Assembly: GCA_903876795.1 (NCBI GenBank)
Contig: CAIRBK010000057.1
Location: 1 to 36,261, forward strand
Length of the DNA stretch: 36,261 nt
Reading direction: 5' to 3'
Source: an uncultured Verrucomicrobiota bacterium
Lineage (GTDB): Bacteria > Verrucomicrobiota > Verrucomicrobiia > Opitutales > Opitutaceae
Below, piece after piece: positions 1 to 25,457 of this stretch. The notes under the pieces are model-generated. The model did no database searches. It saw only the letters and a program-made list of their open reading frames with translations, and was not told the origin of the DNA. Within the stretch, counting starts at the first letter, position 1, and each line of letters starts with the position of its first letter. A program made the position numbers and the translations under genes.

Positions 1-117
1 AGCATGGGAAGTATGGGGATGGGGAGGGTGGATCGAAAGGATCGGCCTGGCGGGGTAGGCGCGGAGCATGGGAAGTATGGGGATGGGGAGGGTGGATCGA
101 AAGGAGCGGCCTGGCGG
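1..117. repeat. Two-copy direct repeat, 53-bp unit, 64-bp period
   Basis: Positions 1-53 and 65-117 are the same 53-bp G-rich unit with one difference (T at 42, G at the matching place in the second copy), separated by 11 bp. The first copy begins at the window edge, so more copies may lie upstream. It sits just ahead of a sugar-permease gene. A frame stays open through it, but the permease homology starts only at about 232, so I treat the repeat as non-coding. It could be a recent duplication of a gene junction; its function is unknown. Confidence 0.8.
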
Positions 118-2796: not shown

Positions 2797-2822
2797 ATAA
2801 CTATTCTTATCAAGATAGTTAT
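2797..2822. promoter_or_regulatory. Inverted repeat ATAACTAT-N10-ATAGTTAT, candidate operator
   Basis: Perfect 8-bp arms at 2797-2804 and 2815-2822 with a 10-nt spacer; a further AACTAT half-site lies at 2770-2775. The spacing resembles sites of LysR-type or other dimeric regulators. A related 24-nt sequence, minus strand 25410-25387, lies upstream of the convergent operon. No regulator gene is in the window. Confidence 0.35.
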
Positions 2823-5583: not shown

Positions 5584-5609
5584 GACGCCGGCGTGTGCAC
5601 GCCGGCGTC
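5584..5609. promoter_or_regulatory. Perfect 12-bp stem hairpin between receptor and metQI
   Basis: Arms 5584-5595 (GACGCCGGCGTG) and 5598-5609 are perfectly complementary around a TG centre. It lies 18 bp after the receptor stop and 20 bp before the next start. There is only a weak T-run after it. It may attenuate transcription, stabilise the receptor mRNA, or be a repetitive palindrome. Confidence 0.55.
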
Positions 5610-5628
5610 TCTCCCTTTGGTTGCCGCC

Positions 5629-7218: not shown

Positions 7219-7222
7219 CGCC

Positions 7223-8929
7223 ATGAGGAACGCGATTCATCAAACCGGCCTCGGCTGGGTGGCTGCCGGAGTGCTCGCGGTGCTGGCCGGCGGCTGCAAG
7301 CCCGCTCCTCACCCCGTCGAGCCGCCTGTGTCCGCCGCGAGCGCGGCGATCAGTTACCCGGCGGAAGACTACCGGGAGCAGTCGCGCGGACGCCCGGGCG
7401 GCACGCTCAAGGTCTCGGTGGCGGCCGACACGGGCACGCTCGATCTCCACGCCATCTCCCACACCAACGCGCAATGGCTTGGCCGGCTCATCTACGACAA
7501 CCTGGTCTATCTCGACGCCAAGGGTGAGCCGTCGCCCTGGCTGGCCAAGTCCTGGACGATTTCGCCCGACGGCAAAACCTACACCTTCCACCTGCGCGAC
7601 GACGTCACGTTCAGCGACGGCTCCAGGTTCAACGCCGAGGCCGTGCGGCTCAACCTTGAGCACATGCGTGATCCGGCCACCAAGTCGCCGCTGGCGGCCG
7701 CCTACATCGAGCCGTATGCGGACGGCCGCGTGATCGACGAATTCACCTTCGAGGCGCGCCTGCGCGAGCCTTACACGCCGTTCCTGGATGTGCTGGCGCA
7801 ATCCTGGCTGGCGATGATCTCGCCGAAGCAAATCCGGGAAAATCCCCGGCTGATCGGAGAAGCCCCGGCCGGATCGGGGCCGTTTGTGGTCGAGCGCTAC
7901 ACGCGCCAGCAGGGCATCCGCCTGGTCCGGCGGGACGATTACCACTGGTCGCCGCCGGTCATCGGCCACGAGGGGCCGGCCTACCTCGACCGCATCGAGC
8001 TGGAGTTCGTGCCCGAGGCGCTCATCCGCTACACCTCGCTGGCATCGGGCCAGTACGATTTCACCATCGACGCCCCCGCGCAGAACGCGGCGGCCATCCG
8101 CGCCGATGCTTCGCTCGTGATTCAGAGCCGCGTGCGCAAAGGCATCCCGACCCGGGCCATTACTTTCAACGTGACCCGGGAGCCGTTCACCGACGTGCGG
8201 GTGCGCAAGGCCTTCGCTCTGGCGGTGGACCGCGAGGGCATCGCCCAGATCATGGGCTTCGGCGAGTTCAAGCCGAAGACCGACTACCTTGCGGCGACCA
8301 CGCGCTACTACGATCCGTCGTTTCAGGATGCCTTGAAATACGACGTGCCCGCGGCCGACCGGCTCCTCGACGAGGCGGGCTGGACCGCCCGCGACGGCGC
8401 CGGCTATCGCGTGAAGGACGGCCGCCGCCTCTCGGCCGAAATCCTTGCGGCCGAATCGGCCACCCCCGGCGCTCTGACGGTCGCGATGCAGTCCGACGTT
8501 AAAAAGATCGGCTTCGATCTGGTCATCGTTCAGCTCCCCGCGGCGCAACTGACGGACCGTCGCAACGCCGGCGCTTATCAGGCGCTCAGCGGAGGCGTGT
8601 GGCACACGAACACGCCGGACGCCCTGTATATCCTGCATCACAGCCGGGCGATCACCACGCCGAAGCTCATCGGCCAAAACACTTCGCGACTGCAGGACGC
8701 CGATCTGGATGACATGCTCGCGCAGGCCCGGCAGACGGTCGATCCGGCGGTGTTGAGCGATCTCTACAGCCGTGCCCAGCGCAGGCTTACCGAGCTGGTC
8801 CCGTCGGTGCCGGTCTATGAAAACCTGCCGATCATCGCCTACCGCCGAGATGTCAGAGGCGTGGTTTTCGACACCTCTCACAACACCCCCGTGTTCACGA
8901 CGGTGTGGTTGGACAGGGAAAACCCATGA
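7223..8929 (+). CDS. Peptide/nickel-type ABC substrate-binding lipoprotein (SBP_bac_5)
   Basis: Periplasmic binding protein, 568 residues from the ATG at 7223, four bases after the metQI stop. The N-terminus is a lipoprotein signal ending LAVLAGGC, with the cysteine near residue 25. The body has family-5 features: GGTLKVSVAADTGTLD, LAKSWTISPDGKTYTFHLRDDVTFSDG and FNVTREPFTDVRVRKAFALAVD. Family members bind peptides, nickel, glutathione, opines or other solutes, so the ligand is open; the sulfur genes around it suggest a sulfur compound. The stop overlaps the next start (ATGA), implying translational coupling with the permease. Confidence 0.93.
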   Translation: MRNAIHQTGLGWVAAGVLAVLAGGCKPAPHPVEPPVSAASAAISYPAEDYREQSRGRPGGTLKVSVAADTGTLDLHAISHTNAQWLGRLIYDNLVYLDAKGEPSPWLAKSWTISPDGKTYTFHLRDDVTFSDGSRFNAEAVRLNLEHMRDPATKSPLAAAYIEPYADGRVIDEFTFEARLREPYTPFLDVLAQSWLAMISPKQIRENPRLIGEAPAGSGPFVVERYTRQQGIRLVRRDDYHWSPPVIGHEGPAYLDRIELEFVPEALIRYTSLASGQYDFTIDAPAQNAAAIRADASLVIQSRVRKGIPTRAITFNVTREPFTDVRVRKAFALAVDREGIAQIMGFGEFKPKTDYLAATTRYYDPSFQDALKYDVPAADRLLDEAGWTARDGAGYRVKDGRRLSAEILAAESATPGALTVAMQSDVKKIGFDLVIVQLPAAQLTDRRNAGAYQALSGGVWHTNTPDALYILHHSRAITTPKLIGQNTSRLQDADLDDMLAQARQTVDPAVLSDLYSRAQRRLTELVPSVPVYENLPIIAYRRDVRGVVFDTSHNTPVFTTVWLDRENP

Positions 8930-9858
8930 GACTGGGGAAGCGCATCTTCCTGCGCCTGCTGGCCGGGGTCGGCGTGCTCTGGGGTGCGGCGACCCTCACC
9001 TTTGTGGCGGTCAACGTGACGGGCGGCGACACCGCGCTGGCCATACTCGGCGGCCCCGACGCCCTGCCGACTCCCGAGGTCGTGGCGCGCGTGCGCGCCG
9101 AATACGGCCTGGACCGGCCGCTCATCGAGCAATACGGCCGCTATCTGGCGAGGCTCGCGCGCGGAGATCTCGGTGAATCCTACCGGCTGCGCATCCCCGT
9201 GACGCGGGCCATCGGCCAGCAACTGCGTGCGACCGTCGAACTCGCGCTCTGCGCCACCCTGCTGGCGGTAACGGCGTCGATCTTCTGGGCGATGCTCACG
9301 GCCAAACGGGCGCGCTGGGTGCGGTCCTTTTCCTCCGGTTCCGAGCTGGTCGTTTCCTCCATGCCGTCCTTTGTGATCGGCATACTCCTGCTGCTGGTAT
9401 TCTCGTTCCGGCTGCACGTGTTTCCCGCCTCGGGCTCGCATGGCTGGAAGTCGCTGGTGATGCCCGCCCTCACGCTGGCGCTGCCCATGATCGCGGTGCT
9501 CAGCCAGGTGCTGCGGCAGCAATTGGAGGAAATCCTGGAGCAGCCCTTCATCGTCACGGCCCGCGCCCGCGGCCTGGGCGACGCCGCGGTGCGGCTGCGT
9601 CACGCGCTGCGGCACGCGTTGATTCCTTTGGTCACGCTTTCGGGCTACATCACGGCGGGCCTGCTGGGCGGGGCGGTCATCGTCGAGTCGCTTTTCGCCC
9701 GCCAGGGCGTGGGTCGCCTCATGGTCGAGGCGACCACCAACAAGGACGTGCCCGTGGTGCTCGGCATCACGCTCATGGCCGCGCTCGTCTACGTCGTCGT
9801 CAACCTGATCGTCGATCTCCTCTACACCGTCATCGATCCGCGCGTGCGCATTGGCTGA
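8926..9858 (+). CDS. DppB-type ABC transporter permease
   Basis: Inner-membrane permease, 310 residues, starting at an ATG that overlaps the binding-protein stop. The N-terminal LGKRIFLRLLAGVGVLWGAATLTFVAVN is typical of DppB/OppB, as are the GLDRPLIEQYGRYL segment and the coupling loop [26 protein letters not shown]. About six membrane segments are visible. The usual gene order would continue with DppC, DppD and DppF. Here those partners are on the opposite strand at 22.5-25.1 kb, and the next gene on this strand is an oxidoreductase. Confidence 0.93.
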   Translation: MRLGKRIFLRLLAGVGVLWGAATLTFVAVNVTGGDTALAILGGPDALPTPEVVARVRAEYGLDRPLIEQYGRYLARLARGDLGESYRLRIPVTRAIGQQLRATVELALCATLLAVTASIFWAMLTAKRARWVRSFSSGSELVVSSMPSFVIGILLLLVFSFRLHVFPASGSHGWKSLVMPALTLALPMIAVLSQVLRQQLEEILEQPFIVTARARGLGDAAVRLRHALRHALIPLVTLSGYITAGLLGGAVIVESLFARQGVGRLMVEATTNKDVPVVLGITLMAALVYVVVNLIVDLLYTVIDPRVRIG

Positions 9859-13335: not shown

Positions 13336-13887
13336 TCACTCGGTCGTTGGTCTCTCGGCTAAGACCGCCCCGGCGGCAGGCAATTTCGCCGGTGTCGGCA
13401 GCACCAACTGATAAAACTCCACATCCAGCCAGCGGTCGAATTTGTAGCCCGCCCGGCGGATGCGGCCGCACGGCGTGAAGCCCGACTCCGTGTGCAGGCG
13501 GATGCTGGGTGCGTTGGCCGCGTCGATCACGCCGACGAGCACATGGTAGTCCTGCGCCTGCGCCGCGGCGATGACCGCGTGCAAAAGCCGGCGGCCGACG
13601 CCGAGCCGGCGTTTCTCCGGATGAACGTACACCGAGTGCTCCACGGTGTAGCGGTAGGCGGGAAACGCGCGGAACGTCCCGTAGCTGGCGAAGCCCGCCA
13701 GGGCGCCGTCGGCGTCGAACGCGCCGATCACCGGATAGCCGCCCGCCTCCTTGGTGTTAAACCACGTTTCCATGACCGCCGGCGTGCGCGGCTCGTACTC
13801 GTAGAGCGCGGTGGTGTGCAGGATGGCGTGGTTGAAGATCGCGAGGATTTCCGGCGCGTGCGCCCGCGCGCAGGGTGCGAGGTTCAT
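13336..13887 (-). CDS. GNAT acetyltransferase, phosphinothricin/methionine-sulfone type
   Basis: 183 residues from the ATG at 13887, whose first bases overlap the stop of the upstream cysteine-synthase-like gene (ATGA). Features of the Pat/MddA/YncA branch are IFNHAILHTTALYEYEPRT near residues 17-35, the acetyl-CoA-binding RRLGVGRRLL (93-102) and GVIDAANAPSIRLHTESGF. Family members N-acetylate phosphinothricin, methionine sulfoximine or methionine sulfone. Tight coupling to a sulfur amino acid enzyme favours a role with a toxic sulfur amino acid analogue or by-product of the pathway; that is inference. It is the last gene of the minus-strand operon. Confidence 0.88.
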   Translation of the reverse strand: MNLAPCARAHAPEILAIFNHAILHTTALYEYEPRTPAVMETWFNTKEAGGYPVIGAFDADGALAGFASYGTFRAFPAYRYTVEHSVYVHPEKRRLGVGRRLLHAVIAAAQAQDYHVLVGVIDAANAPSIRLHTESGFTPCGRIRRAGYKFDRWLDVEFYQLVLPTPAKLPAAGAVLAERPTTE

Positions 13888-14867
13888 GCGGTGAACGATG
13901 TGGGCAGACCTCGCGCGGCCAGCCAAGAAGGATTGTGGATCGTGGCCGAGTAACGGGCTCCGCCATCGCAAAGGATGGCGACAATTCTGCGGCCCGGCCC
14001 GTTGATGCGCGCGTCTCTCACGGCTGCGGCCACGTTCATGGCCGCCGACAAACCCAGGAACAAACCCTCTTCCTCACGCAGGCGATGAAGCATCGCCACG
14101 GCCTCGGCATCGGCGATGCGGTAGGCCTCGTCCACGCGGGCCCGGGCGACGTTGACGGTGACGCGACGCTGCCCGACGCCCTCGGCGACCGATTCGCCGT
14201 CGGCAAAGTCCAGGTGCCCGTGCTTGAACCAGGACCACATGGCCGCCCCCATGGGGTCGGCGCAGATGATGCGCACGGAGGGCGCATGTTCCTGAAAGTA
14301 ACGGCTAAGGCCGGCCAGCGTTCCGCCCGAGCCCACTGCGGCAACCACGGCGTCGAGCCGGCCTTGGCAATCGCGCCAGAGCTCCGGGGCGGTGCCCCCG
14401 TAATGGGCTTCTTGATTGGCAAGATTGTCGAATTGATCGACCCACCACGCGTGCGGCGCGCCGGCGGCCCGCCGGGCGAGGCGTTGGAAATGTTCGGGAT
14501 GATCCGGATGCACATGGGGCACCACGGTCACCTTGGCTCCCAGGGCTTGAAGCAGGTCGATCTTGGCCTGGCTGACGCAGTCGGGCACGAAGAACAGGAA
14601 GCCGTATCCGCGCGGTTTTCCATAAAGCGCGAGCGCCGCGCCGGTGTTCCCCGCCGTGCCTTCCACCACCAGACTTCCGGGCCGCAGAAGCCCGGCGCTT
14701 TCCGCGGAAGCCATCATCGCCAAGGCGGCCCGGTCCTTGATGGAGCCGCCCGGGTTGAGGAACTCCGCCTTGCCCAGGATCTCGCATCTGGTCTCCGCCG
14801 AGAGGCGGTTTAGCCGAATCAGCGGGGTTTCTCCCACCGCTGCTTGAAGGCGATTGAGTTGGAGCAT
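13884..14867 (-). CDS. PLP-dependent cysteine synthase family protein
   Basis: 327 residues of the CysK/CysM fold-type II family. The PLP lysine is Lys44 in NPGGSIKDR, the substrate loop is EGTAGNTG (69-76) and the phosphate-binding loop is GSGGT (179-183). The EGTAGNTG variant, where typical CysK has PTSGNTG, marks a sister branch, so the carbon acceptor could be O-acetylserine, O-phosphoserine or another beta-substituted amino acid. It would capture sulfide made from released sulfite, or break down a substituted cysteine. The ATG at 14867 matches the family start. About 65 bp separate it from the upstream FAD protein gene. Confidence 0.88.
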   Translation of the reverse strand: MLQLNRLQAAVGETPLIRLNRLSAETRCEILGKAEFLNPGGSIKDRAALAMMASAESAGLLRPGSLVVEGTAGNTGAALALYGKPRGYGFLFFVPDCVSQAKIDLLQALGAKVTVVPHVHPDHPEHFQRLARRAAGAPHAWWVDQFDNLANQEAHYGGTAPELWRDCQGRLDAVVAAVGSGGTLAGLSRYFQEHAPSVRIICADPMGAAMWSWFKHGHLDFADGESVAEGVGQRRVTVNVARARVDEAYRIADAEAVAMLHRLREEEGLFLGLSAAMNVAAAVRDARINGPGRRIVAILCDGGARYSATIHNPSWLAARGLPTSFTA

Positions 14868-14932
14868 GGTATGAATTTAACCCGATGGAAAAACGAGCGT
14901 CCGACGAACAAAATCCCGGCGGCAAACGCACG

Positions 14933-16369
14933 TTATGACGGGTCCTGCGGCGAGGCGGTCACCGGGCCCAGGAGCTCGCGGGCGATCACCCGGGCCTGGG
15001 CGCGGATTTCGGGCACGGCGGTCGATTCCCAGAGCACGCCCTTGAGCGGCGAGCCGAGCGTGTAGAGCCAGGGGATGGGGCCGTTGCGATGGCGCAGGAG
15101 TTGTCCGGTGGGCAGGGCGGCCGCGCCGAGCGCGAGCGGATCATGGTCGATCAGGCCCCGCGCCAGAAGGTTGATGAGCAGCGGGTGCTGGTACTTGGAG
15201 TAGTCGCTGCGCGGACCGGTGCAGTTGATGAACTTGGCGACGAACAGCGTCTCGTCGGCCGGGGCGCGCCGGCGATGGATCGTGACGGCGAGCCCGCCGG
15301 CCGTCTCCTCCACGTGGATGAAACGGGCGGCGATGAACTCGAGCCGGCCTTGCGCGGCGAGGGCGGAGAGTTGCGCGTCGATCTGCGGGGCGAGGCGGTG
15401 GCGGTGGATTTCCCAATAGGGGCGCAGGTGGCGGAGAAAGCGCGCGCGCTCGGTCCAGTCGAGCGCCTGCCAAAGGCGATGCGAGTGGGGCCGCAGGGCG
15501 TCGACGACATCGGTCCAGGGTATGCCGCGCGCGGCGGCGGCGCGCACCTCGGCCCGGACGCGGCGCAACAGGGCGAGCAAGGTGTGCGGCGCGGGCTCGT
15601 CCTTGAGAAAATCATGATGGCCCGGACCCGGGGCGTGGGCCTTGTGGCGCAGGCCGCGCCGGGAGATGCAGACGATGCGCCCGCGATGTCCCTGGGCGAC
15701 GAGTTCCAGGGTGATGTCGGATGCGGTGAGTCCCTGGCCGGCGATGACCACGTCGGCGTCGGGGCCGATGCCGGCGACGGCGTCGGGAGCCCAGGGCGTG
15801 TGCACATAGCGACGGCTGCGATAGACCTGGCGGCCGGAGCGCACGGGGTATTCGCCCGGCAGGTTGCCGATGGCGAGCACCACGCGATCGGCGGCCAATT
15901 CCGTGCCGTCGGCCAGAACGACGCGGGCTCCGTCGGCGCCCTCGCGCTCGGCCACATCGACCGCCTCGCCCGTGCGCACGGCGAAGGCCACCGCCGGGCT
16001 GGCCGCCTGGCGGGCCTCCAACAGGACGTAGGCGATGTATTCGCCGTAGAGGTGGCGCGGCAAAAAGTCGCCCGGCGACACCGCGTCGGGACATCCCGGA
16101 CGGCCGAGACGTTCGCGGACCCAGCGCAGAAAATGCCCGGGATCGTCCGGGTGGGCGCCCATGCGCTCGACGGGGACGTTGAGCAGGTGCGAGCGCGAAT
16201 GCGTGTTGTAGGCCACGCCGCGCCCGATGGGGGAGCCGCGCTCGATGACCGTGATGATCGTGCCGTCGGGGGCGAGGGGCAGCAGTTGCGCGGCCACCAG
16301 TGCGCCGGCCACGCCGCCGCCGATGATCACGATGCGCAAGGGTGCGGTCGGCTGGGGAGTGGTTTTCAT
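14933..16369 (-). CDS. FAD/NAD(P)-binding protein (NAD_binding_9-like)
   Basis: 478 residues from the ATG at 16369; a longer open frame adds an Arg-rich tail unlike any dinucleotide-binding start and is rejected. The FAD-binding Rossmann motif is IIGGGVAGALVAAQLL (15-30), followed by ERGSPIGRGVAYNTHSRSHLLNVPVERMGAHPDDPGHF in two conserved blocks. A second nucleotide-binding-like stretch is VVIAGQGLTASDITLEL. This family is often annotated only as FAD/NAD(P)-binding protein or FAD-dependent hydroxylase and recurs beside sulfonate and sulfone oxygenase genes. It may be an N- or S-oxygenating enzyme or an electron-transfer partner. Specific reaction unknown. Confidence 0.85.
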   Translation of the reverse strand: MKTTPQPTAPLRIVIIGGGVAGALVAAQLLPLAPDGTIITVIERGSPIGRGVAYNTHSRSHLLNVPVERMGAHPDDPGHFLRWVRERLGRPGCPDAVSPGDFLPRHLYGEYIAYVLLEARQAASPAVAFAVRTGEAVDVAEREGADGARVVLADGTELAADRVVLAIGNLPGEYPVRSGRQVYRSRRYVHTPWAPDAVAGIGPDADVVIAGQGLTASDITLELVAQGHRGRIVCISRRGLRHKAHAPGPGHHDFLKDEPAPHTLLALLRRVRAEVRAAAARGIPWTDVVDALRPHSHRLWQALDWTERARFLRHLRPYWEIHRHRLAPQIDAQLSALAAQGRLEFIAARFIHVEETAGGLAVTIHRRRAPADETLFVAKFINCTGPRSDYSKYQHPLLINLLARGLIDHDPLALGAAALPTGQLLRHRNGPIPWLYTLGSPLKGVLWESTAVPEIRAQARVIARELLGPVTASPQDPS

Positions 16370-16391
16370 GCGGCGGCGGAGTGCCTGGTCG

Positions 16392-16643
16392 TTATGCGGA
16401 CTTGGGCGGCGGAGGCGACGGCGGCGGAGTCGGTTGAACGCGGACTTTTTCGGTGATCTCGATCTGGTTGATGCGCCCCTCCTGGACGATGAGTTGCAGG
16501 GAACCGTATTTGAGGGCTTCGACTTTGTCGCGGACAAAGCCGAGGCTGGCGTCGTTGGGGGTGGCGGCGGGCGCGGCCGGCGGGGCCGCCGGAGATTTGA
16601 CCGGCGGCGTGCGCCGTTGGCGGTTCTTTTTGGGCGAGCTCAT
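16392..16643 (-). CDS. DUF2292 (YezD-like) small protein
   Basis: 83 residues from the ATG at 16643, or 90 from an in-frame ATG at 16664; the second lies just after the aldo/keto reductase stop. After a basic, Pro/Ala-rich N-terminus comes the short conserved domain EALKYGSLQLIVQEGRINQIEITEKVRV, which matches the DUF2292 pattern (aromatic-G-S-hydrophobic stretch, Q-D/E-G, Q-I-E-x-T-E-K). It ends in a Pro-rich tail. To my knowledge this family tends to lie beside sulfur assimilation genes in several phyla, and its function is not known. Confidence 0.75.
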   Translation of the reverse strand: MSSPKKNRQRRTPPVKSPAAPPAAPAATPNDASLGFVRDKVEALKYGSLQLIVQEGRINQIEITEKVRVQPTPPPSPPPPKSA

Positions 16644-16669
16644 GGCGAGGGTGGGAAAACTCATGGCGG

Positions 16670-17689
16670 TCACCAGCGGTGGAGGGAGGGGCCGTGGTCG
16701 GCTTCGTAGAAAGGCGCGACGTGCGCGCCGGGCGGGATGATCTCGTCGATGCGCCTGAGGTCCTCGGCGGTGAACGTGACGTCGAGGGCCCGGAGGGCGT
16801 CTTCGAGTTGGTCGAGCGTGCGCGGGCCGATGATCGGGCTGGTGATGCCGGGCCGCCGGGCGACCCAGGCGAGGGCGAGTTGGGAGAGCGGCACGCCCTT
16901 CTCGGCGGCGAGGGCGTTGAGCGGCTCGATCACGTCGAACGAAGTTTTGGTGAAACGCTTCGCCTGGACGGGGCCGGGGTCGGCGTAGCGTGAGCCGGCG
17001 GGGGCGGCGGTGTCGCGTTGATATTTGCCGGTGAGCAGGCCGCCGCCAAGGGGGCTCCAGGGGATGACGGCCAGGCCGTAGGTCCGGGCGACGGGGATGA
17101 GTTCGCGCTCGATGCGGCGGTCGAGGAGGTTGTAGGGCGGCTGTTCGGAGACGAAGCGGTTGAGGTGGAGTTTCTCGCTCGCCCAGAGCGCCTCGACCAC
17201 CTGCCAGCCGGCGAAGGTGGTGGTGCCGATGTAGCGGACCTTGCCGGCGCGCACGAGGTCGTCGAGGGCGCGCAGGGTTTCGTCGATGGCGACCTCGGGG
17301 TGCGGGCGATGGATCTGGTAGAGGTCGAGGTGGTCGGTCTGGAGGCGTTTGAGGCTGGCCTCGGCCTGGGCGACGATGTGGCGGCGGGAGACGCCCTGGG
17401 CGTTGGGGTCGGCGTCGTCCATCGGGAAGTGGACCTTGGAGGCGAGGAAGACGCGGTCGCGTTTGCCGTTCCGCTTGAGGGCCTCGCCGGTGAACTGCTC
17501 CGAGACGCCGCGCGAGTAGGAGTTGGACGTGTCGAGGACGTTGATGCCGGCGTCGAGGGCGCGGTCGATGATGCGGACGGAGTCTTCGAGTTCGGTGCGG
17601 CGGCCGAACATCATGCAGCCCAGCGTGAGCGGGGAGACTTTGACGCCGGTGCGTCCGAAGAGGCGGTAGTCGGAGGAGGTGATGGGCAT
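16670..17689 (-). CDS. Aldo/keto reductase
   Basis: 339 residues, complete TIM-barrel oxidoreductase using NAD(P)H. The catalytic tetrad is readable: Asp53 and Tyr58 in NVLDTSNSYSRG, Lys85 in LASKVHF, His127 in LYQIHRPH. The coenzyme end has TSPIIGPRTLDQLEDALRAL. It belongs to the YajO/MocA/Gre branch. It may reduce aldehydes released when alkanesulfonates or similar molecules are desulfonated, which would explain its place in the operon; that is inference. An aldo/keto reductase fossil of a different type ends the plus-strand operon. Confidence 0.92.
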   Translation of the reverse strand: MPITSSDYRLFGRTGVKVSPLTLGCMMFGRRTELEDSVRIIDRALDAGINVLDTSNSYSRGVSEQFTGEALKRNGKRDRVFLASKVHFPMDDADPNAQGVSRRHIVAQAEASLKRLQTDHLDLYQIHRPHPEVAIDETLRALDDLVRAGKVRYIGTTTFAGWQVVEALWASEKLHLNRFVSEQPPYNLLDRRIERELIPVARTYGLAVIPWSPLGGGLLTGKYQRDTAAPAGSRYADPGPVQAKRFTKTSFDVIEPLNALAAEKGVPLSQLALAWVARRPGITSPIIGPRTLDQLEDALRALDVTFTAEDLRRIDEIIPPGAHVAPFYEADHGPSLHRW

Positions 17690-17707
17690 GGCGGGTGTTT
17701 TTAAAGT

Positions 17708-18493
17708 TCAGATGTTGGGGGTGAAGTCGTGGAGCAGGGTGGCGCCGACGGCGCGGTCGCGCAGGAGCAGCTTGCCGAGATTGGAAAGCGGCTCGTGGAA
17801 GGGCTCGCGCAGGGAGAACTTTTCGACGACCTGGCCGGCTTCCATCACGGCGACGCGGTTGCACACGGCGTTGACGGCGTTCATCTCGTGGGTGACGAGC
17901 ACGATGGTGAGGCCGAAGCGCTGGTTGAGCTGCACGAGGAAGGCGAGGAGGTTGCTGGTCATCTGCGGGTCCACGGACGACGTGGGCTCGTCGCAGAGGA
18001 GGACCTTGGGGTGGTTGGCGAGGGCGCGGGCGATGGCGACGCGCTGGCGCTGGCCGCCGGAGAGCTTGGCGGGGTAGGCGCGGATCTTGTCGGTGAGGCC
18101 GACGATCTCCAAAACCTCGGCGACGCGGGCGGCGCGGGCGGCCTTGGGCACGCCGGCGATTTCGAGCGGGAAGGCGATGTTGTCGGCGACGGTGCGGTTG
18201 TTGAGGAGGTGGAAGTTTTGAAAAACGAAACCGATCGACCGGCGGGCGCGGAGAAGTTCGGCGGGGGCGAGGGCGAGCAGGTCGCGGCCGTCCACCTCGA
18301 TGCGGGCGGCGGGATTCGGGTCGGGGCGTTCGAGGAGATTGATGGTGCGCAGGAGGGTGGATTTGCCGGCGCCGCTGAAGCCGATGATGCCGTAGATGTC
18401 GCCGGCGTCGATTTGCAGGGAGGCGTTGTGGACGGCGCGCAGCGGTCCGTCGGGGGTGGCGAAGGTTTTGGAAACGTGGTGGAGGGAAATCAT
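17708..18493 (-). CDS. metN: MetN-type ABC transporter ATP-binding protein, short form
   Basis: 261 residues. Walker A GFSGAGKST (38-46), Q-loop Gln92, signature LSGGQ (144-148), Walker B Asp168-Glu169, H-loop His202. The start ISLHHVSKTF, with DGPLRAVHNASLQI and GFSGAGKSTLLRTINLLERP, is characteristic of MetN. The protein stops about 60 residues after the H-loop, so the C-terminal NIL domain (about 80-100 residues in E. coli MetN), which senses methionine and causes trans-inhibition, is missing. The cognate membrane part is probably the plus-strand MetQ-MetI fusion at 5.6 kb, the only MetI in the window. Confidence 0.88.
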   Translation of the reverse strand: MISLHHVSKTFATPDGPLRAVHNASLQIDAGDIYGIIGFSGAGKSTLLRTINLLERPDPNPAARIEVDGRDLLALAPAELLRARRSIGFVFQNFHLLNNRTVADNIAFPLEIAGVPKAARAARVAEVLEIVGLTDKIRAYPAKLSGGQRQRVAIARALANHPKVLLCDEPTSSVDPQMTSNLLAFLVQLNQRFGLTIVLVTHEMNAVNAVCNRVAVMEAGQVVEKFSLREPFHEPLSNLGKLLLRDRAVGATLLHDFTPNI

Positions 18494-18522
18494 GGCGGAC
18501 ACGGCACGGGGAGGCGGCGGGT

Positions 18523-19782
18523 TCAGATAAACTCGGATTGGGCGGCGGTGACCGGGTCGGGCGGCGTGTCGTCGGCGAGGCGGCGGGCGGGTTTTTCCGG
18601 GGCGACGCCGTTGAGAAACCAGTTTCCGGCGGCGTGGTATCTCCACGGGTTGGCGTCGTGGACGGTGTGGACGCGGGCGTTGCGCCAGTGGCGGTCGAGG
18701 TTGAGGGACTCGTCGGCGGCGCTGGTGCCGATGAGGGCGAAGAGTTCGCTGGCGATTTCCACGGAGACGTCCTCGGCGTAGGCCTTGGCCTCGCCGACGA
18801 GCACGGCGGCGTGGGCGGCGACGGACGCGGTCGGGCGCGAACCGGCGGCGTCGATCGCGCGGGCGGCGCGCAGCAGCAGGGCCTCGGCGGCGTGGAACTT
18901 GGCGTGGAGCTGGCCGAGCCGGTGAAGGAGCAGAGGGTCCTCGGTCGGTCGGGCTACGGGCGCGCCGAGGCGGGGGCGTTTGCGGGCGCGCACGGCGGCG
19001 ACGGCGTCGGCGAGGGCGTTTTGGGCGATGCCCACGTCGATGGCGGCGTGGAGGAGCTGGGCAAAGGCGTGGAAGGTCGCGGGCCGCGAGAAGAGTTTCC
19101 AGTGCTCGACGACGTGGCCGGCGGGCACGGAGACATTGCGGAAATGGGCGGTGCCGCTGTAGGTGGCGCGTTGGCCGAGGGCGTTCCAGTCGTCCTGCAC
19201 CTCGACGCCGGGCGTCTCGCGGCGCACGTAGGCCAGAACGAGGCGACCGGCGTGGTCGATGGCGGCGACGGGCAGCCAGTCGGCGAAGAGCGCGCCGGTG
19301 GTGTAGTGCTTGGTGCCTTCGAGGAGGAAGGCGTCGGGCGCCTCGGGATCGCGACGCAGGCGGGTCTTGAGGTCGAGGGCGGAGGCGGAGCCGCGTTCGG
19401 CCTGGGCGTTGCCGAGGCGGGAGCCGGCGAGGACTTCGGCGTAAAAAAACCGCTTTTGCTCGTCGGTGCCGTCCTCGCGCAGGGCGTTGACGAAGACGAA
19501 GTGGCTCTGCGGGAGCTGGGCGACGGCGGGGTCGGCTGCGGCGAGGATTTGAAACACCTGGGCGAGGGTCTCGGCGGTGACGCCGGGGCCGCCGTGGAGC
19601 GGCGGGACGGTGAGCGCGAGCAGTCCGCGGGCGGAGAGCAGGTCGAGTTCGGCGACGGGCTTGCGGCGCTCGCGGTCGCGGGCGGAGGCCTCGGGCGCGA
19701 GCAACGCGGCGACCTCGCGGGCGACGGCGAGCGCCTCGGCGTCGGTGCGGATGATTTTGGCGGGCGAGAAGGCGGAGGACAC
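18523..19782 (-). CDS. Acyl-CoA-dehydrogenase-fold flavoprotein, SfnB-like (second copy)
   Basis: 419 residues. Landmarks are LSARGLLALTVPPLHGGPGVTAETLAQVFQILAAADP, GNAQAERGS, LEGTKHYTTGALFADW and the C-terminal LNLDRHWRNARVHTVHDANPWRYHAAGNWFLNG. The last stretch is the signature of the SfnB/DszC branch rather than true acyl-CoA dehydrogenases. SfnB-type proteins are induced by sulfur limitation and act with FMNH2-dependent monooxygenases on dimethyl sulfone or related compounds. It lies between MetN (30 bp away) and the SsuD-like gene (18 bp). It is clearly diverged from the plus-strand paralogue at 9.9 kb, so the two probably differ in substrate. Confidence 0.9.
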   Translation of the reverse strand: MSSAFSPAKIIRTDAEALAVAREVAALLAPEASARDRERRKPVAELDLLSARGLLALTVPPLHGGPGVTAETLAQVFQILAAADPAVAQLPQSHFVFVNALREDGTDEQKRFFYAEVLAGSRLGNAQAERGSASALDLKTRLRRDPEAPDAFLLEGTKHYTTGALFADWLPVAAIDHAGRLVLAYVRRETPGVEVQDDWNALGQRATYSGTAHFRNVSVPAGHVVEHWKLFSRPATFHAFAQLLHAAIDVGIAQNALADAVAAVRARKRPRLGAPVARPTEDPLLLHRLGQLHAKFHAAEALLLRAARAIDAAGSRPTASVAAHAAVLVGEAKAYAEDVSVEIASELFALIGTSAADESLNLDRHWRNARVHTVHDANPWRYHAAGNWFLNGVAPEKPARRLADDTPPDPVTAAQSEFI

Positions 19783-19799
19783 GGGAGGCGGGCGGGTGT

Positions 19800-20993
19800 T
19801 TAGCGGGCGGCGGCGACGGGCTCGCGCAAGGTGGCGGGCGGGGCGAAGGGAACCTCGACCTGGCTTTTTTCGGCGCGGGCCGGCGCGTGGGGGTGGCTCC
19901 AGAGGCCGTCTTTTTGGAGCAAGGGCAGCACGCCCTCGGCGAACCAGTAGGCCTCCTCCAGATGCGGGACGCCGGAGAGGACAAACTCGTCGATGCCGAT
20001 GGCGTGGTAGGCCTTGATTTTCTCGGCGACCTCGCGGTGGCTGCCGACCAGGGCGGTGCCGGCGCCGCCGCGCACGAGCCCGAAGCCGGCCCAGAGGTTG
20101 GGCTCGATTTCGAGGTTGGCCTTGGAGCCGTTGTGCAGGGCGAGCATGCGCCGCTGGCCCTCGCCCTCGCTGCGGGCGAGGCCGGCCTGGACGGCCTGGA
20201 TGGTTTCGGGGTCAATCGCCTGGAGCAGGCGTTCGGCCTCGGCCCAGGCGGCCTCGGCGGTGTCGCGGGTGATGACGTGGAGGCGGATGCCGAAGCGCAC
20301 CTCGCGACCGGTTTTGGCGGCGAGGGCGCGGATGCGCGTGATCTTCTCGATGACGGCGGGCGTGGGTTCACCCCAGGTCAGGTAAACGTCGATGTGTTTC
20401 GCGGTCACGGGGCCGGCGCCGGCGGAGGAGCCGCCGATGTAGAGCGGAGGCGCGATCTCGGGGCGGGAGGGCAGAGTGGCGTTTTCAACCTGGTAGAAGC
20501 GGCCCTGGAAATTGACGTTCGGGCGCACCCAGAGTTCGCGGACGATGTGGAGAAACTCGTCGGCGCGCTCGTAGCGCCCGGCCTTGTCGGAGAAGTCGGC
20601 GTAGGCGCGCTGCTCGTGGGGCTCGCCGCCCACGACGATGTTTACGAGCAGGCGGTTGTTGGAATAACGCTGGAAACTCGCGGCCATCTGCGCGGCGAGG
20701 GTGGGCGAGATCAGGCCGGGGCGCAGGGCGACGAGGAATTTGAACGTCTTGGTCACGCCGGCGAGCATGGCGTCCACGATGAAGGCGTCCTCGCACCAGG
20801 CGCCGGTGGGCGTGAGCGCGCCGATGTAGCCGAGCTGCTCGGCGCTGCGGGCGATCTGCCCGAGATAGTCGAGCGTGGCGGGACGGGCGCCGCCGGCGAC
20901 GCCCGCGGGCAGGCCGTGGCCGCCGCCGACGATGTAACGGGAGTCCCCGTAGGTCGGAAGGAACCAGAGGAATTTCAAGGGCGAGGTGCTCAT
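19800..20993 (-). CDS. ssuD: FMNH2-dependent alkanesulfonate-type monooxygenase, SsuD-like
   Basis: 397 residues, slightly longer than E. coli SsuD, with a C-terminal extension of about 25 residues. Strong SsuD-group features are FLWFLPTYGDSRY, DYLGQIARSAEQLGYIGALTPTG, FKFLVALRPGLISPTLAAQMAASFQRYS, RLLVNIVVGGEPHEQRAYADF and LYIGGSSAGAGPVTAKHIDVYLTWGEP. The reaction in the family is alkanesulfonate (or sulfone) plus FMNH2 and oxygen to aldehyde plus sulfite. The start overlaps the stop of the upstream DszA-like gene by 4 bp. The flavin would come from the SsuE-like protein at 29.3 kb. SfnG and MsuD are close relatives, so methanesulfonate or dimethyl sulfone are also possible substrates. Confidence 0.9.
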   Translation of the reverse strand: MSTSPLKFLWFLPTYGDSRYIVGGGHGLPAGVAGGARPATLDYLGQIARSAEQLGYIGALTPTGAWCEDAFIVDAMLAGVTKTFKFLVALRPGLISPTLAAQMAASFQRYSNNRLLVNIVVGGEPHEQRAYADFSDKAGRYERADEFLHIVRELWVRPNVNFQGRFYQVENATLPSRPEIAPPLYIGGSSAGAGPVTAKHIDVYLTWGEPTPAVIEKITRIRALAAKTGREVRFGIRLHVITRDTAEAAWAEAERLLQAIDPETIQAVQAGLARSEGEGQRRMLALHNGSKANLEIEPNLWAGFGLVRGGAGTALVGSHREVAEKIKAYHAIGIDEFVLSGVPHLEEAYWFAEGVLPLLQKDGLWSHPHAPARAEKSQVEVPFAPPATLREPVAAAR

Positions 20994-22504
20994 GTGGTGG
21001 CGAGGGAATGTGCGGGGCGGGCGGAGGGTGGCGTGAGAGGAGCGGCGGGTTTGACGGCGGCGCGCTCGCGTTGCTCGTGCATGGAAAGTTCGGAGGCCGG
21101 ACGATCCGGGAACAGGATCGGCGTGAACGGCTCGCGGAGCCTGGCGGGGTCGCGGTAGCGGGCGCCGTAATGGTAGTCGGGCAGGCGGGCCCGACCGGGG
21201 CCGAAGAGCCGCTGGCGGAGAGTCTCGCCGTCGTTGTAGGCCTCGCGGTAGCGGCCGCGGGCGCGCAGCTCGGGCACCACGTATTCGACGAAGTCGCGGG
21301 CGGTGTCGTAGCTGTGATATTGGACGAGGTTGATGCCGTCGATGCCGTCCTCGTCGAGCCACTTCTCGATGGCGTCGGCAACGACCTTGGGAGTGCCCGC
21401 GACGAAGTAGCGGCCGTAGTTGATGCCGCCGAGCTGGTCGAGGACGTCGCCGACGGTCTGCTCGGGCTTGAAACGGGGGGCGATCTGGTCGTGGCCGGGA
21501 TCTTTGCGGGCAATGATGTCGGCCAGCCGTTCGGTGCGCGGGTAGCGCGTGTAGTCGATGCGCGACATGCTGTGGGCGAGGCGGCCCTCGACGCTCATGT
21601 TTTTCTGGTAGAGCGCCAGTTTGGCGGCGACCTGCTCGTCGGTGCGGCCGGTGATGATGCCCGCGCCGGTGATGAACTTGATGTCGGTGGGCTTGCGGCC
21701 GTGGCGGACGAGGCGGGCGCGCATGTCGGCGATGTTGGCGCGGACGGCGTCGGCGTTGATGCCGCCGGTGAAGACGGCCTCGGCGTGGCGGGCGGCGAAC
21801 TCCTTGCCGGCGTGGGAGCCGGTGGCCTGGTAGAGGACGGGCGTGCGCTGGCGCGAGGGCTGGCAGAGGTGCGGACCGGCGACCTTGAAGCGGGGGCCGG
21901 CGTGATTGATGTAACGGACCTTGGCAGGGTCGGTATAGATACGGCGGTCGCGGTCCTGGATGACGGCGTCGTCGTCCCACGAGCCCTCCCAGAGCTTGTA
22001 GAGCACGTCGATGTATTCGTCGGCGATGGTGTAGCGGTCGTCGTGGGGAACCTCGCCTTCCAGGCCGAAGTTGCGCGCGGCGTTGGGCAGGTAGGAGGTG
22101 ACGATGTTCCAGGCGAAGCGGCCGTTGGTCAGGTGGTCGAGCGTGCTGGCGCGGCGGGCGAAGGCGAAGGGCGGCTCGTAGGTGGTGGAGAACGTCGCGC
22201 CGAAGCCGAGGTTCCTGGTGACGGCGGCCATCGCGGGGATGACGAGGAGCGGGTCGTTGCTGGGGATCTGCACGGCCTCGCGCAGCGAGGCGTCGGCGCT
22301 GTCGCGGAAACCATCGTAGGCGCCGATCACGTCGGCGAGGAAGACGCCGTCGAACGCGCCGTGTTCGAGGATCTGGGCGAGTTCGGTCCAGTAGGAGAGT
22401 TCGTTGAACCGGTGGCGGTGGTTGTCGGGCAGCACCCACTGGCCGTGGATGATGTGACTCACGCAGTTCATCTCGAAGAGATTTACATGAAGTTGTTTAG
22501 GCAC
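20990..22504 (-). CDS. FMN-dependent monooxygenase, DszA/NtaA-like
   Basis: 504 residues, starting with GTG at 22504 because KQLHVNLFEMNCVSH is the conserved N-terminus of DszA-like proteins; an AAGGA lies about 10 bases upstream. The start overlaps the preceding ABC gene's stop by 8 bp. Diagnostic blocks are FNELSYWTELAQILEHGAFDGVFLADVIG, FGATFSTTYEPPFAFARRASTLDHL, RFAWNIVTSYLPNAARNFG and LYQATGSHAGKEFAARHAEAVF. Close to the DszA (dibenzothiophene sulfone) and DmoA (dimethyl sulfide) lineage. The last 50 or so residues are an Ala/Pro-rich extension. It probably opens a C-S bond using FMNH2; the exact substrate is unknown. Confidence 0.9.
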   Translation of the reverse strand: MPKQLHVNLFEMNCVSHIIHGQWVLPDNHRHRFNELSYWTELAQILEHGAFDGVFLADVIGAYDGFRDSADASLREAVQIPSNDPLLVIPAMAAVTRNLGFGATFSTTYEPPFAFARRASTLDHLTNGRFAWNIVTSYLPNAARNFGLEGEVPHDDRYTIADEYIDVLYKLWEGSWDDDAVIQDRDRRIYTDPAKVRYINHAGPRFKVAGPHLCQPSRQRTPVLYQATGSHAGKEFAARHAEAVFTGGINADAVRANIADMRARLVRHGRKPTDIKFITGAGIITGRTDEQVAAKLALYQKNMSVEGRLAHSMSRIDYTRYPRTERLADIIARKDPGHDQIAPRFKPEQTVGDVLDQLGGINYGRYFVAGTPKVVADAIEKWLDEDGIDGINLVQYHSYDTARDFVEYVVPELRARGRYREAYNDGETLRQRLFGPGRARLPDYHYGARYRDPARLREPFTPILFPDRPASELSMHEQRERAAVKPAAPLTPPSARPAHSLATT

Positions 22505-24197
22505 TGAGGAGGTTCCTTTCGGGTGTTTCCAGGCGGGGGATGGCGTTGAGCAGGGTGCGGGTGTAGGGATGTTGCGGCCGGTCGAAGACCTCGCGGACGG
22601 CGCCGGTCTCGACGACGCGCCCGTCCTTCATGACGAGGATGCGGTCGCAGACGCGGTAGATGACGCCGAGGTCGTGCGAGATGAAGAGGCAGGCGAGATC
22701 CAGTCGTTTTTTTAGGTCGGCCAGCAGGTCGAGGATTTGCGCCTGCACGGAGACGTCCAAGGCCGAGACCGGTTCGTCGCACACCAGCACTTCGGGCCCG
22801 GTGGCGAGCGCGCGGGCGATGGCGACGCGCTGGCGTTGACCGCCGGACAACTCCAGGGGCCGGCGCGAGAGCAAAGCGGGGTCGAGGCGTACCAACGCGA
22901 GCAACTCGCGGGCGCGCGCGAGGCGTTTTTCGCCGCGCTTGAAACCGGCGACGGCGAGCGCCTCGAAGAGGATTTTGTCGACGGTGTAGCGCGGGTCGAA
23001 GGAGGCGAGCGGGTCTTGGAAAACCACCTGGATGCGCCGCCGGGCGTCGCGCTGGCGTTTGCCGGGCAACGCGTGGAAATCGCGGTCTCCCCACTCGACC
23101 GCGCCGCCGTCGGGTTTTTCCAGGCCGAGCATGAGCCGGGCGGTGGTGGTTTTGCCCGAGCCGGATTCGCCGACGATGCCCAGGGTCTGGCCGGGGCGGA
23201 GCACGAAGGAAACGTCGGAGACCGCGGCGCGGGTTACGGCGTCGGGGCCGACGTAGTTTTTGACGAGCCCGCGAGCGGCGAGCAGGGGGCGGCCGCGACC
23301 GTTGTCGCCGTCGGGCCGGGGAAAGGGGGCGACGGCGGTGTCCGCGGGCCGGCCGTCGCCGTTTTCGCGAAACCCGCGGACGCGGACGGCGGGCAGGCGG
23401 GCGTTGTGGGCGTGCACGGCGACGTGCGCGGCAAGCAGCGCACGGGTGTAGGGATGTTGCGGGTGGTGGAGCACGGCGCGCATCGGGCCTTGCTCGACGA
23501 TCACGCCCGCGTGCATGACGGCGACGCGGTCGGCGAGGCGTGCGACCACCGCGAGATCATGGCTCACGACGAGCATGGCCCGGTCCGGGCCGCGCAGGGA
23601 TTCGAGGAGGCGGAGCACATGGGCCTGCACGGTGGCGTCGAGCGCGGTGGTGGGCTCGTCGGCGAGGAGAAGCTCCGGGTCGCCGGCGATCGCCGAGGCG
23701 ATGAGCGCCCGCTGGCGGAGTCCGCCCGAAAGTTGATGGGGATATTGGCGGGCGCGCACGGCGGGCTCGGGCACGCCGACCTTGTCGAGCAACGCGACCA
23801 CGCGGGCGTCGCGCTGGTCTGCGGTGAGCGGGGTGTGCAGGCGCAGCGTCTCGCCGATTTCACGGCCGGCGGTGCGGAGCGGGTCGAGGGAGCCGAGTGC
23901 GTCCTGCATGACGAAGCCGATGCGGCCGCCGCGGATTTGCCGCCAGTCGCGTTCACCCAGGCCGGTGAGATCGCGGTCGTCAAAGCGGAGGCGGTTGGCT
24001 TCGATGCGCGCGTTGTCGCCCGCCAGGCCGACGAGCGTGCGCGCGGTCACGCTCTTCCCTGAGCCGGACTCGCCGACCAGCGCCAGGCACTCTCCGCGCC
24101 GGATGGCGAACGAGATGCCCTTGACCACCGGCGGTCCGTCGGCGCCGAAGCGCACGCGGAGGTTGTCCACCTCGATCAATCTCCGCGCTTCGCTCAT
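22497..24197 (-). CDS. Fused dual ATP-binding protein of a peptide-type ABC importer (DppD-DppF)
   Basis: 566 residues with two complete nucleotide-binding domains, where oligopeptide-type systems often have two separate proteins. Domain 1: Walker A GESGSGKS (42-49), signature LSGGL (156-160), Walker B Asp180-Glu181. Domain 2: Walker A GESGSGKT (343-350), signature LSGGQ (450-454), Asp474-Glu475. Each domain ends with the PQHPYTR motif of the oligopeptide/nickel group. The linker is about residues 262-303. The start overlaps the stop of the DppC-like gene (ATGA). It should energise DppB at 8.9 kb and DppC next door. Confidence 0.93.
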   Translation of the reverse strand: MSEARRLIEVDNLRVRFGADGPPVVKGISFAIRRGECLALVGESGSGKSVTARTLVGLAGDNARIEANRLRFDDRDLTGLGERDWRQIRGGRIGFVMQDALGSLDPLRTAGREIGETLRLHTPLTADQRDARVVALLDKVGVPEPAVRARQYPHQLSGGLRQRALIASAIAGDPELLLADEPTTALDATVQAHVLRLLESLRGPDRAMLVVSHDLAVVARLADRVAVMHAGVIVEQGPMRAVLHHPQHPYTRALLAAHVAVHAHNARLPAVRVRGFRENGDGRPADTAVAPFPRPDGDNGRGRPLLAARGLVKNYVGPDAVTRAAVSDVSFVLRPGQTLGIVGESGSGKTTTARLMLGLEKPDGGAVEWGDRDFHALPGKRQRDARRRIQVVFQDPLASFDPRYTVDKILFEALAVAGFKRGEKRLARARELLALVRLDPALLSRRPLELSGGQRQRVAIARALATGPEVLVCDEPVSALDVSVQAQILDLLADLKKRLDLACLFISHDLGVIYRVCDRILVMKDGRVVETGAVREVFDRPQHPYTRTLLNAIPRLETPERNLLSA

Positions 24198-25111
24198 GGT
24201 GCGCGGCCCTCCGTCCGGCGGACGATCTCGCGGCCCAGCGCGGTCAGCGAAAGCACCGTCAGGGTGATGGCGGCGGCGGGCGCGGCGGTGAGCCACCAGG
24301 CGTTGCCGAGGAAATTGCGCCCCACCGACAGCATGGAGCCCCACTCGGGCGAGGGCGGCGGCGCGCCGAAACCGAGGAAACTCAGCGAGGCGCCGGCGGC
24401 GATTTTGCCGCCGATGCCGATGATGGAGAGGACCAGGATGGGTTTGACGGCGTTGGGCAGGATGTGGCGGAAAACGAGCGCCGGGTTGCTCAGCCCGAGC
24501 GTGCGCGCGGCCTCGACGTAGCCGGCGCGGCGCACCACATGGGCCTGGGCCCTGACCATGCGTGCGTAGCGAGGCACGCTCGCGATGCCCACCGCCACGA
24601 TGGTGTTGAACGTGCCCTGGCCCCAAAACGTGATGATCACCAGGGCGAACAGGAGGTCGGGGAACGCCAGCAGCACATCGACGCCGCGCATGATCAGGCC
24701 GTCCACCACGCGGTGGCCGAGTCCGGCCAGCAGGCCGACGGCCACGCCTGCGCCGACCCCGATGGCGGTGGCGGCGAGACCAACCAGCAGCGACGGTCGC
24801 ACGCCGTGAACGAGGCGGGTGAAAATGTCGCGGCCATTTTCATCGGTGCCAAGCCAGTGGGCTTCGCCGGGTGCGCGAAACGCCATGCGTGCGTTGGCCG
24901 CCAACGGATCACCCGACGCCAGCCAGGCCGGTTGCAGGGCGGCGACGGCCAGAAAGGTGAAAAACAAGGCCGCGAGCACCAGGCCGGGCCGCGATTTGCC
25001 GAGCCGCGAGACGGCGCGACGCCAAGGCCGGTTCGGTCTTTGCGGCGAGTCGGCCCATGTCATCGGCAGAGGGTGGCCGTTGGCGAGAGTGGTTTCTTCG
25101 CCCACGCTCAT
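24194..25111 (-). CDS. DppC-type ABC transporter permease
   Basis: 305 residues from the ATG at 25111, which has a strong Shine-Dalgarno (AAAGGAG) four bases away; a start 33 bp further upstream would lie across a hairpin and is less likely. Typical DppC features are ANARMAFRAPGEAHWLGTDENGRDIFTRLVHGVRPSLLVG in two conserved blocks, the coupling loop YVEAARTLGLSNPALVFRHILPN and SFLGFGAPPPSPEWGSML. About six membrane helices. First gene of the minus-strand operon, partner of DppB on the other strand at 8.9 kb, and coupled to the fused ATPase by a 4-bp overlap. Confidence 0.92.
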   Translation of the reverse strand: MSVGEETTLANGHPLPMTWADSPQRPNRPWRRAVSRLGKSRPGLVLAALFFTFLAVAALQPAWLASGDPLAANARMAFRAPGEAHWLGTDENGRDIFTRLVHGVRPSLLVGLAATAIGVGAGVAVGLLAGLGHRVVDGLIMRGVDVLLAFPDLLFALVIITFWGQGTFNTIVAVGIASVPRYARMVRAQAHVVRRAGYVEAARTLGLSNPALVFRHILPNAVKPILVLSIIGIGGKIAAGASLSFLGFGAPPPSPEWGSMLSVGRNFLGNAWWLTAAPAAAITLTVLSLTALGREIVRRTEGRAP

Positions 25112-25141
25112 GCCGCTCCTTTCACCAGGGAAAGGAGCGGC
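25112..25141 (-). promoter_or_regulatory. Hairpin that buries the dppC Shine-Dalgarno
   Basis: On the mRNA, GCCGCTCCTTTC (25141-25130) pairs perfectly with GAAAGGAGCGGC (25123-25112) around a six-base loop; the start codon follows at once. The 3' arm contains the whole AAAGGAG ribosome-binding site, so translation should be blocked unless the stem opens. A second GCTCCTTT lies about 200 nt upstream (25345-25338) and could compete for the same site. Confidence 0.65.
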
Positions 25142-25457
25142 CAAGCGCGGACTTCACTTGCGGGAATCATGACGGGACAGGCGGATCAAAACGTTGTTTT
25201 TACACGGCACAGCCAGGGAGCTTGTGCGGAAAATGGGATGGAAACGGCGCATCAAGGCGCGCTCGGTAATGCTGCCGGAAGAACCTCCGATCATGCGGTC
25301 GGTCTTCTTGGGCCATGCCTCCGCAATTACGGTCGGCAAAGGAGCGTCGCCAGTGGCGCAGCTCTGAATGGACTTAAATCAGACTAAACTAGTATAGTAA
25401 GTCAAGTTATTCAGAACGGGTGAATGGAAATTTATTAAAAATTTTAACAACAATATG
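25142..25457 (-). promoter_or_regulatory. Promoter and long leader of the minus-strand operon
   Basis: About 315 bp without a gene. 25380-25457 is AT-rich and probably holds the promoter: minus-strand TTGACT (25405-25400) with a weak TCTGAT 16 bp on, or a TATACT at 25396-25391 lacking a good -35. The rest, to the dppC hairpin, is GC-rich untranslated leader; a 61-codon minus-strand frame within it (25339-25154) has no recognisable homology. Confidence 0.4.
25387..25410 (-). promoter_or_regulatory. 24-nt motif shared with the receptor-operon upstream region
   Basis: On the minus strand this reads ATAACT-N3-CTTA-N2-A-N3-TAGTT and agrees at 16 of 24 positions with 2797-2820, with no gap. It overlaps the candidate promoter and, on the plus strand, a 14/16 palindrome (25383-25398). 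A shared operator is possible; AT bias makes chance similarity a real alternative. Confidence 0.3.

Follow-up and report, generated by a model that had tools for sequence, protein, structure and literature searches.

Translational riboswitches of sulfur metabolism, namely the SAM and SAH classes, combine an occluded ribosome site with sulfur genes and a long leader, and amino-acid leader-peptide attenuators include cysteine-responsive ones of mycobacteria. A description of the leader studied here was not found in the open literature, among the matches listed. In one of two accepted models of translational coupling, a hairpin over its ribosome site silences the downstream gene until translation from upstream opens it (PMC12548453). 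Another paper mentions a common attenuator element, without naming it, ahead of an operon for sulfonate transport (PMC2965389).

We analyzed a stretch of 36,261 nucleotides from an uncultured Verrucomicrobiota bacterium of the family Opitutaceae (contig CAIRBK010000057.1, hereafter the window), in which a predicted hairpin covers the ribosome site and start codon of dppC. The arrangement is like the SAM and SAH riboswitches in its occluded ribosome site, sulfur genes and long leader, but neither an Rfam match nor an ON structure was found for the dppC leader, and its stem is not conserved. It resembles leader-peptide attenuators in having short ORFs in a sulfur-operon leader, but Cys or Met codons do not form a run in them, and peptide conservation is weak. 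With the RNA unfolding model of coupling (PMC12548453), it shares a hairpin over the ribosome site and start, and an overlapping upstream ORF (ATGA) could open the hairpin here; unlike in that model, the upstream partner is a short putative ORF without a clear ribosome site.

The dppC operon and the hairpin at its start codon

The initial annotation had placed dppC at the head of an eleven-gene operon, behind a perfect 12-bp stem that hides AAAGGAG right before the start codon. Both statements stand: eleven genes were recovered with Pfam and NCBIfam, and the stem is present and even stronger than described, as it is extended by a 10-bp outer helix (-41.9 kcal/mol). From dppC onward, the genes are dppDF, an NtaA/DmoA-type flavin monooxygenase, an SsuD-like gene, an acyl-CoA-dehydrogenase-like gene, a MetN-like ATPase, an aldo/keto reductase, DUF2292, an FAD protein, CysK and GNAT (the names SsuD-like and MetN-like rest on scores under the NCBIfam cut-offs). 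By gene content, the operon would serve sulfur scavenging. The features discussed below are collected in Table 1.

Table 1. Positions of the operon, the hairpin and the leader features in the window
Feature	Position	Strand	Remarks
Eleven-gene sulfur-scavenging operon (putative)	13336..25111	-	Pfam and NCBIfam; taken as an operon by gene spacing and shared strand
dppC, permease, first operon gene	24194..25111	-	PF00528; N-terminus compared with relatives
Extended hairpin, 10-bp outer helix, dppC start codon inside	25100..25152	-	Folding, -41.9 kcal/mol
20-codon ORF through the hairpin	25108..25170	-	TGA 25110-25108 overlaps dppC ATG 25111-25109 (ATGA); function inferred
Perfect 12-bp hairpin, 6-nt loop	25112..25141	-	Sequence and folding; AAAGGAG in the 3' arm, directly ahead of the dppC ATG
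46-codon ORF	25154..25294	-	Starts in motif 2, stop just ahead of the outer helix
38-codon ORF	25200..25316	-	Frame best matching an L036 frame
Conserved motif 2, ACCGCATG-N1-2-CGGAGG	25284..25299	-	14/14 outside the spacer identical in L036
Conserved motif 1, TGCCGACCG-N6-CGGAGGCA	25316..25338	-	L036 324-346: flanks 17/17 identical, spacer 0/6
Second CGCTCCTTT (9-mer), complementary to the ribosome site	25338..25346	-	Overlaps a predicted 5' hairpin in part; missing in the leader of L036
AT-rich promoter or operator stretch, TTGAC(T/A)TAC...TTAA	25369..25408	-	Similar in L036; candidate

On the minus strand, the arms GCCGCTCCTTTC (25141-25130) and GAAAGGAGCGGC (25123-25112) enclose the loop CCTGGT (25129-25124) and are followed by ATG 25111. 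In the predicted outer helix, 25152-25143 pairs with 25109-25100; three of the ten pairs are G-U, and the G of the dppC AUG is paired. The 66 nt of the start region fold at -41.9 kcal/mol (z -6.7), which none of 200 shuffles equaled, and the inner 12-bp hairpin by itself reaches -22.0 kcal/mol. Unpaired probabilities were at most 0.003 across AAAGGAGCG, that is, the Shine-Dalgarno site is predicted to be paired in a stable stem at the start codon. The outer helix stands out only mildly, since 160 of 5000 flank shuffles fold as well.

For comparison, we used the window and 15 further stretches of the same genome (252 kb together), in which a composition filter kept 142 coding-like ORFs from 544, with starts picked by a heuristic. 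The dppC start has the lowest start-region energy of the 142 (next lowest -32.7 kcal/mol; mean -17.1, sd 7.7), and it is the sole one that combines a stem of at least 8 bp with more than three matching Shine-Dalgarno bases. AAAGGAG lies 4 nt from ATG 25111, and in only 8 of the 142 sampled starts do at least six Shine-Dalgarno bases match. Length alone does not make the stem exceptional, since stems of at least 11 bp with loops of 3-12 were found at nine places in the 252 kb, two of which precede T runs and two of which are copies of one repeat. The 3.57-Mb genome contains the paired pattern GCTCCTTT-N3-14-AAAGGAGC at a single place.

Other hairpins were noted along the way. One 11-bp hairpin sequence is present in opposite orientations on two contigs of the same genome (L083 8107-8138 and L087 2645-2676) and constitutes a dispersed repeat. 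A 12-bp stem in another stretch (L080) was considered as a counterpart; it is of equal length, but it lacks a ribosome site and seems to belong to an intergenic repeat. Within the window, a perfect 11-bp GC-rich hairpin (5584-5609) lies between the TonB-receptor gene and an ORF at 5593-7218 that joins an NlpA lipoprotein domain to an ABC permease domain.

The genes for the Dpp solute-binding protein and the first permease belong to a plus-strand run headed by a TonB-dependent receptor. The Dpp transporter is thereby split over two operons of opposite strands, with the binding protein and dppB at 7157-9858 (+), and dppC and dppDF at 22497-25111 (-). Three relatives (L039, L051 and L037) have their Dpp genes in one run.

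Related loci and the position of the stem

The closest named monooxygenase loci, L035 and L036, are Verrucomicrobia metagenome bins; 27 of the 43 loci are titled Pseudomonas. L036 represents the same locus with a different first gene, and its first 3615 bases equal the locus of a family genome (G147). In L036, the last part of the same exporter gene precedes a leader, behind which come the genes for the monooxygenase, the SsuD-like, acyl-CoA-dehydrogenase-like and MetN-like proteins and the aldo/keto reductase. The shared genes are 80-90% identical to those of the window, and the L036 stretch contains neither dppC nor dppDF.

The L036 leader was recognized through gene order. A blastn search with the window leader against 45 loci gave no match at E ≤0.01, though the L036/G147 leader was included, and a blastn-type search of the own genome matched the leader itself alone. 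When aligned with the window, the 5' leader and promoter of L036 were equaled by 7 of 2000 dinucleotide shuffles, and the 5' leader without the promoter stretch by 20 of 2000. The likeness rests mostly on motifs 1 and 2. Downstream of these the two leaders diverge, and the first start region of L036 is almost unstructured (-2.2 kcal/mol). Neither the stem nor GCTCCTTT nor AAAGGAG is present in the L036 leader, the only homologous one found.

Among six relatives tabled, dppC follows a monooxygenase or aldo/keto reductase gene in four (L039, L051, L037 and L063), in the order dppB, acyl-CoA-dehydrogenase-like, monooxygenase, aldo/keto reductase (in two of them), dppC, dppDF, monooxygenase. The other two, L035 and L036, have no dppC within the stretch compared. 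Ten dppC starts of relatives gave -9.7 to -27.7 kcal/mol in the same 66-nt frame; they were drawn from fifteen N-termini, and the remaining five were omitted as their start could not be settled. Gene-order comparison shows the stem to lie at a lineage-specific junction: dppC is internal in relatives, and L036 has a similar leader directly before the monooxygenase gene.

No relative of dppC was found at E ≤1e-75 in 251 other family genomes. The monooxygenase was found in 2 of 150 family genomes at 1e-100 and in 2 of 387 phylum genomes at 1e-120, and these were G000 and G147 both times. L035 holds a third verrucomicrobial monooxygenase copy (86% identical), and the L035 genome and G576, of the same family, share a weak match at identical contig and coordinates. 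This coincidence indicates that the family samples for the monooxygenase missed some bearers.

A proposed fixed translational brake and its main alternatives

We tentatively favor the reading that the start-codon-occluding hairpin is a fixed translational brake on dppC, opened by ribosomes arriving from upstream, and that it does not sense sulfur. Such a brake would be lineage-specific, at a place where a Dpp gene pair sits behind a sulfur-operon leader. As the stem is predicted to hide both the Shine-Dalgarno site and the AUG, a free ribosome should rarely start there, and dppC would be made mainly when an upstream-translating ribosome meets the hairpin. Any sulfur control would then reside in the promoter and in the conserved motifs of the 5' leader rather than in the stem. 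This reading hints at a way in which a pair of transporter genes, once placed behind a pre-existing sulfur-operon leader, may be held back right at the start codon of the pair.

The energy and rank of the hairpin support this reading, as do the weaker folds at the dppC starts of the relatives and the predicted cost of 21.3 kcal/mol for freeing the ribosome site as far as the first base of the AUG (-87.9 versus an MFE of -109.2). The comparison with L036 (shared upstream exporter, similar 5' leader, shared downstream genes) and the internal position of dppC in four relatives point the same way. Against it, the stem is found in one genome only, so that selection on the stem cannot be claimed, and a dppC start further in, such as ATG 25063, would leave the stem in the leader. 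Structure just 3' of the first stop codon, moreover, correlates with weaker coupling, according to PMC12548453, and this also counts against a brake.

The likeliest route for an arriving ribosome would be the 20-codon ORF. Its stop overlaps the dppC start in the manner of coupling pairs, an overlap that is not rare by chance. By reading the sequence, no convincing ribosome site was seen for the 20-, 46- or 38-codon ORF, which for the first two speaks against the brake. A ribosome halted at the 46-codon stop is predicted to open the outer helix only and would leave the inner stem closed, which is a further point against it. A search with the 46-residue frame in 150 family genomes matched 71 genomes at E ≤1, including the own genome, with 0.0055 as the best other value; the inspected matches, as well as the L005 and L010 loci, lie in or across other reading frames and were treated as noise. 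The 38-codon frame is the best of nine frame pairs with L036, but its score is reached by 18 of 1000 shuffles and is weak.

Alternatively, the stem could be a relic of the rearrangement that presumably placed dppC here, an inverted repeat made by template switching and tolerated since dppC is little used. The hairpin does lie between the L036-like leader stretch and dppC, the gene that is absent in L036, and the pair has no second copy in the genome. We consider this reading unlikely, as perfect arms (12/12) would decay if old and neutral, and as the dppC reading frame is intact.

A stem of 22 base pairs in two helices could also act in mRNA processing or stability, for example as an RNase III-type site, with dppC starting further in or from the processed end. 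With ATG 25063 as the start, the length of the N-terminus would be one that is known in Pseudomonas relatives. The proximity of AAAGGAG to ATG 25111, a rare match among the sampled starts, and the beginning MS..E, which resembles the starts of several relatives, argue instead for initiation at 25111 and make a processing element distinctly unlikely.

Improbable, and ranking behind a processing element, is a DNA operator, in which a dimeric protein on 25112-25141 would block transcription downstream of the promoter. Perfect 12-bp arms around a 6-bp spacer are palindromic in DNA as well, such a pair occurs once in the genome, and the 9-mer CGCTCCTTT is commoner in the window than expected. However, the arms reach right up to the start codon and include the ribosome site, and the sister operon has no second copy of the paired form. 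The three outer G-U pairs would be kept by RNA alone, yet this argument is tempered by the outer helix being only mildly unusual.

No sigma-70-like promoter passed a simple scan of the minus strand. Were the conserved TTGAC stretch the promoter, the leader would begin near 25365-25370. An inverted repeat, ATAACT-N14-AGTTAT, is present at 2797-2822 (+), ahead of the TonB-receptor operon, and 25385-25410 in the dppC promoter stretch matches it at 10 of 12 positions with equal spacing. Possibly, one regulator acts on both operons.

Leader motifs and the second pairing

Regulation borne by the leader is possible through its conserved promoter-proximal part, and the conserved 5' motifs are better candidates for regulation than the stem. 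They point to a short leader element common to two genera of one family, which may be the real sulfur-control site. Compared with shuffles, the 5' part of the leader folds somewhat better in L036 (z -2.7, 1 of 200) and hardly better in the window (z -1.5, 15 of 200). Between the two leaders, the only ones to compare, the ten pairs modeled for motifs 1 and 2 do not differ, and so speak neither for nor against pairing. With the modeled pairs invariant, RNA structure of the motifs is not proven, and a DNA operator with conserved halves and a free spacer would look alike. In L036, a predicted hairpin before the motifs (305-322) has a sequence unlike that of the 5' hairpin in the window, and an extra predicted hairpin between the motifs (350-376) has no counterpart there.

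A pattern comprising both motifs was found in 4 of 252 family genomes (G147, which is the L036 leader, G065, G534 and G539); it was set with a 5-base second spacer and hence misses the window itself. The G065 locus (L095) was not matched by R1, a model built from the window and L036 leaders, the scores of these two parents being a matter of construction. Of the 252 family genomes, 35 have an R1 match at E ≤1, the best besides the two parents at 5.6e-5, and the seven weak matches inspected (L101, L102 and L104-L108) lie within long coding-like frames. Among 20 monooxygenase-holding genomes, which account for 20 of the 43 loci, 11 matched at E ≤0.5, with only L036's own match below 0.01, and 384 class genomes gave the two parents and four matches at E 0.004-0.009. 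The large R1 searches used a loose first pass, after which part of the candidates was scored. A convincing third member was not found in the 252 family, 20 monooxygenase-bearing and 384 class genomes.

It is quite improbable, on these data, that verrucomicrobial sulfur operons carry a new regulatory RNA in the promoter-proximal part of the leader. Such an RNA would consist of two (CCGA)CCG-N5/6-CGGAGG motifs with variable hairpins around and between them, and would bind a protein or metabolite; the dppC stem would have been added here as a second output, and the CGGAGG repeats could help to open it.

Beyond the occlusion itself, the initial annotation had proposed that a second sequence upstream can pair with the same ribosome site, giving two mutually exclusive pairings, and that the leader, fitting no known riboswitch, could be a sulfur-responsive RNA switch. 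The upstream copy is real: GCTCCTTT at 25339-25346, within the 9-mer CGCTCCTTT, is a copy of the 5' arm of the stem and rivals it for the ribosome site. The pairings do exclude each other, but both hide the same site, and forcing the upstream one is predicted to cost 14.1 kcal/mol (-95.1 versus -109.2). As the copy targets the same site as the 5' arm, either pairing is OFF. An ON partner would have to bind the 5' arm, and the best upstream partner reached -11.3 kcal/mol compared with -22.5 for the stem; none is competitive, and the proposed switch is thus left without an ON state.

The absence of a known riboswitch was borne out, as no Rfam family reached its gathering score in the window and a loose search near the leader gave a single match, to a eukaryotic snoRNA model (E 1.7), with no known riboswitch class. 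That a ligand bound by the leader moves the ribosome site between the two pairings is very improbable: the operon is a sulfur operon, its 5' leader carries conserved motifs, and the window leader is more stable than its shuffles (z -2.4, 0 of 200, a figure that includes the stem), but both pairings are OFF, the stem and the upstream copy are missing in the single homologous leader found, and the L036 leader as a whole shows no unusual degree of structure (z -0.9, with 17 of 100 shuffles reaching its stability). Sequence and folding models thus support ribosome-site occlusion ahead of a putative sulfur operon, and do not support a metabolite switch.

A complement to the 3' arm as long as the 9-mer was obtained in 13 of 2000 leader shuffles. 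The 9-mer CGCTCCTTT occurs five times on both strands of the window versus 0.4 expected, with two sites in the stem, one upstream, and the others at 100 and 31995. At 99-110 (+), the complete 12-base 3' arm GAAAGGAGCGGC recurs inside the permease ORF with which the window begins.
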